A program made the position numbers and the translations under genes. A model generated the notes under the pieces. It did not search any database and was not told the DNA's origin. It was given only the letters and a program-made list of their open reading frames with translations. Source: Owenia fusiformis (taxonomy: Eukaryota; Annelida; Polychaeta; Sabellida; Oweniidae). From it: a stretch of 64,000 nucleotides of DNA. Shown piece after piece: positions 26,901-32,900 of this stretch. The DNA lies in NCBI GenBank assembly GCA_903813345.2, contig CAIIXF020000006.1, positions 33,641,524 through 33,705,523 on the forward strand. Reading direction: 5' to 3'. Each line of letters starts with the position of its first letter. The stretch's first letter is position 1.

Positions 26901-29900
26901 ATATTAAAAAACATGGCAGTTTTATTTTGATTTTCACACTTTTCAAAAAAAATGCAGTGAAAAAATGCCGCGACAAAATGATATTTTTGCACCATTTGAC
27001 ATTTTGTAGTGCAGAATTCTAGTATCCCTGTTCAATAAAATACATAAGCCACATCTTATAGATTTCTGCAAATAAAAATAATAAAAACTAGGTTTTTTTT
27101 AAATCCACTATTATTTTTTGTAAAATACACTTAAGATTTTCGACATCTAAAAAGTCACTCGACTTTTTTGCAAAAAACCTTCCAAAAAGTAACAGTTGCA
27201 TGAATTCACATTGTCGTACTTACAAAATGATCCACCGCCTAACTTATGCACCGTCGAACTCTGTAATATTGTACACGTAACTATTAATTACCGTATATTC
27301 CCATAGAAAACTGGGCTTGCTTTTCAACGATTCAAGCGAAAATTCTCTACATCGCTTTTGTTTTTCTGACGTAATTTCTTCTAAGAAATCAGTGACGTGA
27401 TAGGTTCAGTTCATCTTATTTCGAAAGGGGTGTCATCTATTTAGAATATTTACTTTCATCTTGTCCAGTCCTATATACAACCTGCCCTTATCCCTTTCCC
27501 TTGTAAAACCGCATAGTAATGTTGAAATTATGGAATAGATTCTCTGAGAGGCGACATGTCTGCATCTCTACCATCTTGCGTTTGTCACCCCTCGTTTTGG
27601 GCGAGTCCAAGTGAACCGCACATCCAGGTGATTAGAAAAGGGACATTTTTTTTTAAAAATCGACCGGCAACAAAGATACTTCTGGTCAAACTGAGTTTAT
27701 GACGAAACTTATGAAAGAATAATTTAAAGGTAAGTGGTATACATTAGGCGGATGCCAAAAATTAAACGTGGCGCCAATTTGAAACTTCAGAATGCTTTCT
27801 GTGATTCAAAATCACAAAAAAGTCGAGTGACTTTTTAGATGTCGAAAATCTTAGTGGGAAGGGAAGATTACAATTCGATGACTCACCTCTACTCGTAGTT
27901 CATCTATGATCTTAACGTATCTATGCATATGGAGGTCCACTGACATGACATTGCGCTTTACACGAGCCCTAATATTTTTGGCACGATTGGCATATTTCAG
28001 TGTGTTATAGGTGTCTTCATAGCTCATACTTGATGGACTGAAAACAAAACACATGGAATGTCATTCTCATGATTTATTTGACTAATGAGGGCAGTGTAGA
28101 ATAAGTTATTTGGATAATTAATCAGGCAGGCAGAGTGGAGTGAGACATCTGGATATTTTTTGATACATTATATATAGGCTTGATATTCATATTGACATTA
28201 TGACCAAACAGTGCACTATTTTCTAAAAATAAGTGATTTTCTTTATTTCCAGTTCACATGTTACTCCCTGCAATATCCTTAATCATAATGTAGGGTATGG
28301 AGATGCACCCTATTGTCACAACCTGAATTCCTACCCCCCTGTTCCCCAACTGTAACATATCCATACCTTACTGCTGCTATCATAACAGTCCAACAATTGC
28401 CCCCTCAATCCCCCCTCCATTCCCACTCTCCATTCCCCAACTGTAACATATCCATACCTTACTGCTGCTATCATAACAGTCCAACAATTGCCCCCTCAAT
28501 CCCCCCTCCATTCCCACTCTCCATTCCCCAACTGTAACATATCCATACCTTACTGCTGATATCATAACAGTCCAACAATTGCCCCCTCAATCCCCCCTCC
28601 ATTCCCACTCTCCATTCCCCAACTGTAACATATCCATACCTTACTGCTGCTATCATAACAGTCCAACAATTGCCCCCTCAATCCCCCCTCCATTCCCACT
28701 CTCCATTCCCCAACTGTAACATGTCCATACCTTACTGCTGCTATCATAACAGTCCAACAATTGCCCCCTCAATCCCCCCTCCATTCCCACTCTCCATTCC
28801 CCAACTGTAACATATCCATACCTTACTGCTGCTATCATAACAGTCCAACAATTGCCCCCTCAATCCCCCCTCCATTCCCACTCTCCATTCCCCAACTGTA
28901 ACATATCCATACCTTACTGCTGCTATCATAACAGTCCAACAATTGCCCCCTCAATCCCCCCTCCATTCCCACTCTCCATTCCCCAACTGTAACATATCCA
29001 TACCTTACTGCTGCTATCATAACAGTCCAACAATTGCCCCCTCAATCCCCCCTCCATTCCCACTCTCCATTCCCCAACTGTAACATATCCATACCTTACT
29101 GCTGCTATCATAACAGTCCAACAATTGCCCCCTCAATCCCCCCTCCATTCCCACTCTCCATTCCCCAACTGTAACATGTCCATACCTTACTGCTGCTATC
29201 ATAACAGTCCAACAATTGCCCCCTCAATCCCCCCTCCATTCCCACTCTCCATTCCCCAACTGTAACATATCCATACCTTACTGCTGCTATCATAACAGTC
29301 CAACAATTGCCCCCTCAATCCCCCCTCCATTCCCACTCTCCATTCCCCAACTGTAACATATCCATACCTTACTGCTGCTATCATAACAGTCCAACAATTG
29401 CCCCCTCAATCCCCCCTCCATTCCCACTCTCCATTCCCCAACTGTAACATGTCCATACCTTACTGCTGCTATCATAACAGTCCAACAATTGCCCCCTCAA
29501 TCCCCCCTCCATTCCCACTCTCCATTCCCAACTGTAACATATCCATACCTTACTGCTGCTATCATAACAGTCCAACAATTGCCCCCTCAATCCCCCCTCC
29601 ATTCCCACTCTCCATTCCCCAACTGTAACATATCCATACCTTACTGCTGCTATCATAACAGTCCAACAATTGCCCCCTCAATCCCCCCTCCATTCCCACT
29701 CTCCATTCCCCAACTGTAACATGTCCATACCTTACTGCTGCTATCATAACAGTCCAACAATTGCCCCCTCAATCCCCCCTCCATTCCCACTCTCCATTCC
29801 CCAACTGTAACATATCCATACCTTACTGCTGCTATCATAACAGTCCTACAATTGCCCCCTAGAGAGTCTTTCAGCAGTCTGGTCAGCTTGCTATTTCTGT

Positions 29901-32900
29901 ATGGAACATGCTGGCTTTTTGATGACTGTAAAACAAGAGCATATAAGTAAAGTCACACTCGACTTTAAAATATATATATATATATATGTTGCTGAACATG
30001 TGCTGCTTTGAACTAATTTCCTCGTATTAGTGTGACTTGGCCAAGTGTATGAGTTCAAATAACTAGTACAAAATTAATTCATTTATTTAAAGTATCGTTT
30101 TGATCTACTTCTCATTGCCTTGTAGGGGAGATTGGCCTGGACACAAAGCACAAGAAACCTACCCGTGCATCTGCCAGAGCGTTGATGCAATTACCAAGTG
30201 CAAGGAGAGATTTGTTGATGTTAGCCCCTTCTCTAAACCTAGCTCCACGATTTGTAGTGACAGTGGCACGCTCTGATCCTGCAAGGTCAATCAAAGACAT
30301 CTTTGCCACTCTCACATCAGCTTTCACATCTGCTGTTCGGTCTTTCTGCCGCACAAATACCTAGGAATGAAAATACACATAGGATATGAAGAAATGTTCT
30401 CATGAAACAAGAAGTTCACTTATATAGAACTTAAAATCAACCAGTGACATTTTTTTAAATTATACAAAGTAATATATCAATAATCCTTGATCATTTCTGA
30501 TTAGATATTTCAGATAGTTTTGATTTTTACTTTTTGACGTTTCGGTTAAACATTTTACTTGTATCATATAAACATTAATACTGCACATTATAGTTGTGAA
30601 GGGCCTTAAAGGGATATTCCTTGCCAAACCATCTCTCTCCTCATATAGTAGCTATAACCATATGTATACTTGCCATGTATAGCAAAGCAGTGAAAATGTT
30701 TAGATATGGTCAAAATTGAACACTTAGAAATGTAGTACTCAATTCCACTAGGCTGCCATCTTTTAAGATTCCACTCAGGAAGTGATGTCATCGACTCTCA
30801 ACTTTGCATATAGAATTAGGGAAGGAGCTATTAAGAATAACAAAAACAGCTGAATATTCTTTTTCAATTTTGTATCTGATTTAATTCTTCTGAAATTCTC
30901 TTCTTTTATTCTAAGTTGACAAGCTCTGAAAATGTTTTTGCACAGAAATTAAGGATCACTTGTCTAGAAGTAATTTTGTGCTACTTTCCTACACTGTTAT
31001 GGGCAAGCTTATATAAGTTGAGAGTTGATGACATCACTTCCTGCAAGAAATCTTGAAAGATGGCAGCTCACTGGAAATGAGCACTACATTTTTAAATGAT
31101 CAATATTGACCATATTAAAACATTTCCCATGTTTTGCTAAATATGGAAAGTATATTTATTGATTATAGCTACCATATCAGGAGAGAAATGGTCTGGCGAG
31201 GAATGTCCCTTTAAGTCTAACAGCAATATTGGTCAGGCAGTTCTGTGTAATTTTGGCTAATTGATTTACATAGTTCACTCCTTAGGAATTCAACTACTTT
31301 TGACATAGCTTAAGATGAGAAATCTTGATTCCACCTGTCTTATGGAAGTTACCTGAAATACAGCATGAGATCTCGATGATTCCTTATTTGCATCAGTGGG
31401 ATGCTGCGTCCTGTTTTGATTCCCGAATTCCAACATATGCATTAATTCCTCAGCATCTCTTGGCTGCAGAAAAACAGTTTATATTTTTGTTAATTTGTAA
31501 AAACCTTTCTTTCAATTTACTTGACAAGTGCATTATATCATATTAAAATAATGCACAATAGTATAATGTCAAGGAAGATCAAGTAGAATGATTAAAATCA
31601 TCTTTCCCTTCAGTAACTTAAATTATAATTTGCAGTCTGACTCTGGTAAATGGATTTGTCATCATGGTATGACAGGTAATTGCAAGAGTTAATCAGATGT
31701 ATTGTAACATTCCACATGTTTACCTTATGCAATGAAAGTCCTTGGACAACAACTCCCTTCTGTGGGTCCTCCCTCACTGGCAGATATCCACCTGGGAGCA
31801 GCAAGTCTTTGATCTCCTCATTGTACACCTAAACATAAACATAGATAGAATACATATTCAACACTCAACAAGGTAAAATAAAATCAAAATCATGAAATAA
31901 AATCTGATAACATTGATTTGTTGTTAACCTGAATTATTAATTAAAATGATCTTCATTATTCTACAACTGTTGCATTTGAATGCCATCTATAAATACAGTG
32001 TATGTTTACCTCTAGATAGGAGACAGCAACATCACAGATCTTCTCGTCCCTCATGGCTTCGATCCTTGCATATAAATCCATCATTGTGAGGAAGATCACT
32101 CCAGGCTGGTTAGGCTTTCCTAGCATGGTATGAGTTTTACCAGCTCCAGTTGCTCCATAAGCAAATACTGCAATACACAGGAATGAGAATTAACAACATC
32201 CAATATCACTGTTGTTGAAAGCAGACATGAAATGCAAAAGCAATTTGCCTAAATGTTTATGTAATACGTAGTAGGAATGGAAAACTTGCAATGAAATAAA
32301 CCTATTGTTTAAAATCAAATATCACTGTGATAATATCAGTTATTACACGTTTCACCATGTGATACGTAAGTAAAAATTGTATAACCACGAAAGCGCAGCT
32401 TGAGTGGTGATACTTTTTTACTGAGTGGAATATTTCCCGTATCACATACGCTGAAACGTGTGATGACGATTTTACCACATACTATGTAGAAATTTAGTGA
32501 TTTGATTGGTAGCTTTCTTTGTCGTTCTAACTTCTACAAGTTCTAGTTCCTCATATGACGAATTCATCATTTCTAAGAAATAGTAACACAGCCTATATGT
32601 GACGTCATTTTGAATTAGGAAAGAATAGAATAAAGTTGTATGACGTCATTTCGTTACCATAGACAACGTGTGGTATGTGTGCTCGTATCATATGAAATTT
32701 ATGTGATACGGGAAATACGTCATAGAAAGCAACCAATCAAATCACTAGATTTATACATAGTATGTGATAATAGCATATATTTCAAGGCTTACTGTAAGAC
32801 TGGTTTGCTGGAATTTTCATATTTCAAGTAGCAACAATGGATCAAGTAGAATCCTCATAAGACATGCAGTGTCTTTAAAAATTCAAAATTGCCACCAAGA

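Follow-up and report, generated by a model that had tools for sequence, protein, structure and literature searches.

Within a stretch of 64,000 nucleotides of the annelid Owenia fusiformis (contig CAIIXF020000006.1, C6:33641524-33705523; hereafter the window), an intron of a kinesin motor gene holds a minisatellite that repeats the end of the preceding exon together with its splice donor. Gene and array are on the minus strand, and positions are those of the window unless a contig is named; the assembly comprises 498 Mb in 525 contigs, with C1-C12 summing to about 477 Mb. The profile of the haemoglobin linker family Eryth_link_C, a family specific to annelids, hits this assembly three times (best E-value 5e-7). 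Mitochondrial COX1 and hemerythrin had no match, and the absence of a match to FARP is uninformative. A comparison of the hand-joined exons with the PDB returned KIF18A for all of the top five sequences (E-values of 2.9e-120 to 3.4e-114), which bears out the KIF18-like host proposed in an earlier sequence-only reading of this DNA. Judged by the predicted protein, the host is a KIF18A-like kinesin-8 motor gene. The authentic exon runs into the next exon in frame, the latter completing the split codon AG/T for serine (Table 1).

Table 1. Features of the KIF18A-like locus in window positions and, in the last line, the acceptor array of a second kinesin gene.
Feature	Position	Strand	Remarks
Upstream kinesin motor exon	30166-30360	minus	extent of profile hit
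Authentic exon	29822-29925	minus	104 nt, 34 residues, phase 2 end; kinesin profile hit C6:33671344-33671454
Authentic 5' splice site AAG/GTATGG	29816-29824	minus	last exon base 29822, first intron base 29821
91-bp tandem array	28342-29860	minus	16.7 copies, 99% matches (Tandem Repeats Finder, TRF); repeat search; genome search
16 decoy 5' splice sites	28361-29733	minus	read from sequence
Host intron	28038-29821	minus	1784 bp, of which 1455 bp from real donor to last decoy donor
Next exon	27888-28037	minus	first base 28037; 3' end approximate
Acceptor array L003	C2:23265000-23270500, local 1346-4189		18 copies about 159 bp apart, each with acceptor and about 130 bp of exon

Each unit is made up of 39 bp from the end of the exon, the donor AAG/GTATGG and 52 bp of intron, a composition that TRF and reading of the sequence confirmed; the authentic exon contributes its last 39 bases as the boundary copy. 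A separate repeat search gave the same register, with a spacing of 91 throughout except for one step of 90. The donor motif occurs 17 times on the minus strand, once as the real site and 16 times as decoys downstream of it (first intron bases 29730, 29639, 29548, 29458, 29367, 29276, 29185, 29094, 29003, 28912, 28821, 28730, 28639, 28548, 28457 and 28366), and all 16 decoys are identical to the real donor from -4 to +6; about 16 near-identical donors had been claimed. Also as claimed, TGTTGG (codon TGG, Trp) is present in 16 of 16 copies where the real exon has TGTAGG (AGG, Arg). Of the span of 28332-29925 first assigned to the repeat, the array itself reaches only to 29860, and 29861-29925 are unrepeated exon. 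With 16.7 copies at 99% the array is no chance match, and a genome-wide DNA search, in which very common words are skipped and only the best candidates are scored, matched the unit 17 times, always in this array; an origin from a dispersed repeat or transposon was ruled out on the confinement of these matches. Private variants mark one 90-bp unit, one GATATC unit and four ACATG units. The ACATG variant (units 29730, 29458, 29185 and 28730) recurs at intervals of three units on the exon side of the array, with the fourth case five units further on, and this spacing may be a sign of three-unit duplications. G-runs flank each decoy donor both upstream and downstream. By eye, a second possible donor, GCA/GTAAGG, is placed 5 nt upstream of the real donor and overlaps it (29816-29830), in the exon as well as in the copies.

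Use of a decoy would in no case leave the message readable. The frame is shifted by 10 of the 16 decoys, and a stop codon lies within the extension for 15 of the 16; the extension to the first decoy lacks a stop, but its shifted frame leads to one in the next exon. The decoys in frame are the 3rd, 4th, 7th, 10th, 13th and 16th, and none of them is open. This set does not consist simply of multiples of three, as had been supposed, because one unit is 90 bp. The sequence-only reading had suggested a possible length-variable splicing modulator of the motor; a functional length-variable protein isoform was rejected, since 0 of 16 decoys are both open and in frame.

The closest relatives of this arrangement are found in amphioxus. 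Passages available from PMC3087553 and PMC3902484 describe mirages, minisatellite-like tandem duplications of an intron-exon boundary at either exon end, in the Adh3, globin, troponin C and PGBD5 genes, and splicing is given as normal for those in Adh3 and globin (PMC3087553). As far as these passages go, the mirages share with the Owenia array the AG/GT kept in many copies, the homogenised inner copies, the exclusion of the boundary copy and the intact exon at the edge. The Owenia unit spans the boundary, and arrays of this form were found in several unrelated genes and at both exon ends (24 arrays in three families, described below). On these features of its sequence, the KIF18A-like array belongs to the known mirage kind. 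It differs in its 16 decoys, compared with 6 and 3 units in the two amphioxus BflGb6 haplotypes described in the available passages, and in its phylum, an annelid instead of a lancelet, in which the arrays were here counted over 272 exon hits. No report of mirages under that name outside the lancelets, or of their genome-wide frequency, was found in the openly licensed literature, and a name search tied to amphioxus is a weak one; the frequency of mirages in an annelid may be new.

Other known duplications resemble the array in part, each as described in the passages available. The human CBS gene carries a 31-bp variable number tandem repeat, c.1444_1467+7(16_21), of 16-21 repeats (PMC2630376); by its notation the unit crosses the exon-intron boundary including the donor, as here, whereas the 31-bp unit, the known length polymorphism and the gene are different. 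In CBS 844ins68, a 68-bp duplicated intron 7/exon 8 junction, one splice site is strongly favoured and the mRNA is normal (PMC2630376). Unlike the Owenia array it is a polymorphism with one extra copy, and it concerns a 3' splice site according to a title cited there, although the passage itself says donor (PMC2630376). Human segmental duplications contain internal tandem repeats, some of them at exon-intron boundaries (PMC2812944), which are likewise minisatellites that reach splice sites and are able to change gene structure (PMC2812944). Transcript evidence was used for these repeats and regular mRNA is reported for the amphioxus mirages, whereas the Owenia array is known here from the genome alone. 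Intron gain through tandem duplication of AG/GT proto-splice sites (PMC4974935, PMC2891723) similarly copies a splice signal, and the Owenia unit contains AAGGT. In Owenia, however, the intron already lies between two original exons, and a new intron is neither needed nor shown: the intron ends at the original downstream exon (28037) and the reading frame of the array meets stops, so that intron gain was rejected.

We consider it probable that the array is a mirage-type minisatellite, most likely silent, with exon definition picking the real donor. It would have originated by a tandem duplication with one breakpoint in the exon G-run AGGGGG and the other in the intron. An AGGGGGG run is visible in the flanking intron, and a single event between the two runs would give about 65 bp; a further step is thus needed for the 91-bp unit. 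Slippage or unequal exchange would then have multiplied the copies towards the intron, and the inner copies were presumably homogenised while the boundary copy, which is the real exon, stayed apart, as the Arg and Trp codons indicate. The sequence-only reading had offered selection or lack of conversion as the cause of this distinctness, and the distinctness itself stands with both causes fitting: absence of conversion fits the published escape of boundary copies from homogenisation, and arginine in the exon against tryptophan in the copies also fits selection on the exon.

At the RNA level the whole array is probably spliced out as part of the intron. Exon definition is established splicing theory, and it would favour the real donor in spite of 17 equal donors because this donor is nearest to the exon's own acceptor (104 nt) and no other donor closes off a complete exon. 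The same logic would hold for both types of array, at donors and at acceptors, in each of which the real site is the copy closest to the other end of the exon. Rare use of a decoy leads by sequence to a frameshift or stop, and the resulting transcript would be prone to decay. Protection of the real site by G-runs in general was dropped as the main explanation, since most of the other printed arrays are, by eye, not G-rich.

The arrangement is not confined to this gene. A kinesin profile search led to a second kinesin gene on C2, which we take to be KIF4-like, with an array at the acceptor instead of the donor (L003). Its last copy is the real exon, each of the 17 decoy acceptors is followed by a TAA in frame, and of the eight codon variants between decoys six are silent. 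By eye, the intron after this exon contains a long inverted repeat (L003, about 930-1130) like a small foldback transposon.

The frequency of such arrays was estimated around 272 exon hits (120 kinesin, 60 CCT/Cpn60 and 92 myosin), taken together with flanking sequence or the surrounding stretch of the gene (259 kb in total). These hits are the best-scoring candidates of profile searches and represent a subset of the exons of each family. For kinesin, 120 hits were taken with flanks of 450 bp per side, and the hits of the C2 array and of the window itself were removed before counting; all 60 CCT and all 92 myosin hits were used. Twelve of the latter form one cluster of irregularly spaced hits, all to a single segment of the myosin head profile (L108, C9:37985559-37994784), which looks like the alternative exons of a myosin gene. 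Of the printed arrays, 24 were judged by eye to extend across a real splice site, which is an acceptor in 17 cases and a donor in 7. They affect 23 of the 272 exon hits (kinesin 11/120, CCT/Cpn60 8/60, myosin 4/92), the 24th (L056, 93 bp) being at an exon that adjoins a kinesin hit without being one itself. Left out as doubtful or intronic were L018 (47 bp), L054 (40 bp) and the second L118 array (26 bp), which begins past the donor. The 24 arrays are distributed over 16 of the 69 gene clusters, a little below the 19.5 expected by scatter (P = 0.04). Examples that were followed further, with overlapping ends allowed for, extended to 28 or more acceptors in L118 with L148, and to some 20 donors in L096 with L147 and some 17 in L058 with L144. 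In the arrays that were read, the exon-side end is by eye the continuing exon.

Three splice-site-spanning arrays per gene cluster were seen for L058, L059 and L060 (C6:40.70-40.71 Mb), for L077, L078 and L079 (C8:26.50-26.54 Mb) and for L095 and L096 (C11:0.13-0.14 Mb). L096 includes an old, divergent 28-bp donor array (1989-2463, 16.6 copies, 76%), in which by eye GT survives in about 11 of 15 decoys, many of them reading GTGAGT, and some have lost the donor.

These counts were compared with random placement, the founding unit of each detected array being placed in the same stretches but never wholly within an exon. Such a null treats introns and exon edges alike in mutation and purging, and the exon edges are those of the profile hits, which in some cases extend across introns. 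Under this null about 9.5 of 53 arrays are expected to span an exon edge; 23 were seen, and one of 200,000 simulations was as high. With L056 counted too, 24 were seen for 9.1 expected, a number that no simulation out of 200,000 reached. A strict count, from which the two-copy arrays L025, L090, L091 (30 bp), L093 and L137 as well as L124 are dropped (L124 and the 30-bp array of L091 copy only four exon bases), gave 17 for 9.5 (1321/200,000). At a score of at least 50, kinesin alone showed 11 arrays for 4.4 expected (267/200,000) and CCT alone 8 for 2.6 (208/200,000), the latter not significant under the strict count; myosin alone, with 4 for 2.5 (41,498/200,000), was not significant. A tentative case can be made, falling somewhat short of probable, that splice-site-spanning arrays form a genome-wide class which affects about one in twelve sampled exons at about 1.8-2.4 times the level of random placement.

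The state of the decoys was examined over 26 arrays, namely the 24 assigned by eye, the window array and the C2 array. GT or AG is kept in 102 of the 104 decoys located (two divergent arrays yielded none and L022 only one), and by eye several decoy donors of L091 have decayed. Of the 104 decoys, 11 have an extension that is open and keeps the frame, mostly what unselected extensions would give, so that unproductive decoys are no sign of design. This bears on the possibility that the array is a regulatory modulator, in which some transcripts would use unproductive decoys and array length would set the level of the KIF18-like protein through decay. The 16 decoys, all intact and equal to the real donor, are compatible with such a role, as are the frameshift or stop in every decoy product, which is the pattern of a decay switch, the G-runs on both sides of each decoy and the in-frame TAA behind 17 of 17 decoy acceptors in the C2 kinesin. 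Since unproductive decoys are expected anyway, since the available passages describe splicing as undisturbed by amphioxus mirages (PMC3087553, PMC3902484), and since no other feature pointing to regulation was found, we regard a modulator as unlikely.

Several observations count against a purely silent, tolerated array. Pure tolerance does not explain why arrays across splice sites outnumber those expected from random placement. Classical work with duplicated equal donors often saw the intron-side copy preferred, which would predict trouble for an exon followed by such an array. In addition, columns variable by substitution among decoys, counted in 12 arrays of three or more units (out of 14 given), amounted to 1 of 69 in the splice-site cores, 32 of 572 in the exon parts and 53 of 332 in the intron parts. 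Exon and intron parts differ (P = 7e-7), while the core and the exon part do not differ significantly (P = 0.24). The lower variation of the decoy cores and exon parts would also fit use of the copies.

Such figures raise the possibility that the decoys are kept alike by selection, being used as exons, or by re-seeding from the constrained boundary copy. Silent changes are likewise in excess: over 19 arrays, changes between decoys were silent in 14 cases and replacing in 17, with 25% silent expected (P = 0.011), and changes between decoys and the real exon were silent in 19 and replacing in 15 (P = 0.0001), the latter comparison including selection on the real exon. The excess among decoys is, however, largely due to the C2 kinesin array, without which 8 silent stand against 15 replacing changes; the core is not significantly below the exon part; and the intron parts as counted include pyrimidine runs and variable unit junctions. 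The window array, with 1/37, 1/45 and 0/8 variable columns in its parts, is uninformative, and its fixed Arg-to-Trp change argues against recent re-seeding. Lower decoy variation and the silent excess could reflect constraint, renewal from a constrained boundary copy or fast change in pyrimidine runs, and selection or re-seeding of the decoys appears quite improbable to us. An assembly artefact in the array or its copy number is highly improbable: tandem arrays are hard to assemble, and an amphioxus mirage looked misassembled in a draft genome according to a passage of PMC3087553, but the units here carry private variants (90-bp, GATATC, ACATG) and comparable arrays built from different units are present elsewhere in the genome.

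Further minisatellites were found in the window by TRF at 4706-5630 (57-bp unit), 5933-6559 (50), 19603-19996 (23), 23751-24307 (147) and 60742-61252 (69).

Taken alone, the silent mirage favoured here is an ordinary one in an interesting gene, and what deserves further attention is the wider pattern, which concerns about 8% of the exon hits sampled. Every such array amounts to a natural experiment in splice-site choice among near-identical sites in a row, with 17 donors in the KIF18A-like gene and 28 or more acceptors in the longest array followed. If the arrays are common, a single genome gives many replicates of the donor and the acceptor type, for all of which exon definition predicts use of the exon-nearest site only. 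The apparent excess at exon edges bears on intron growth and on the origin of new splice sites. If it is true, exon edges would be hotspots of tandem amplification, or decoy sites would be retained by selection, and the trait would be convergent with that of the lancelets.

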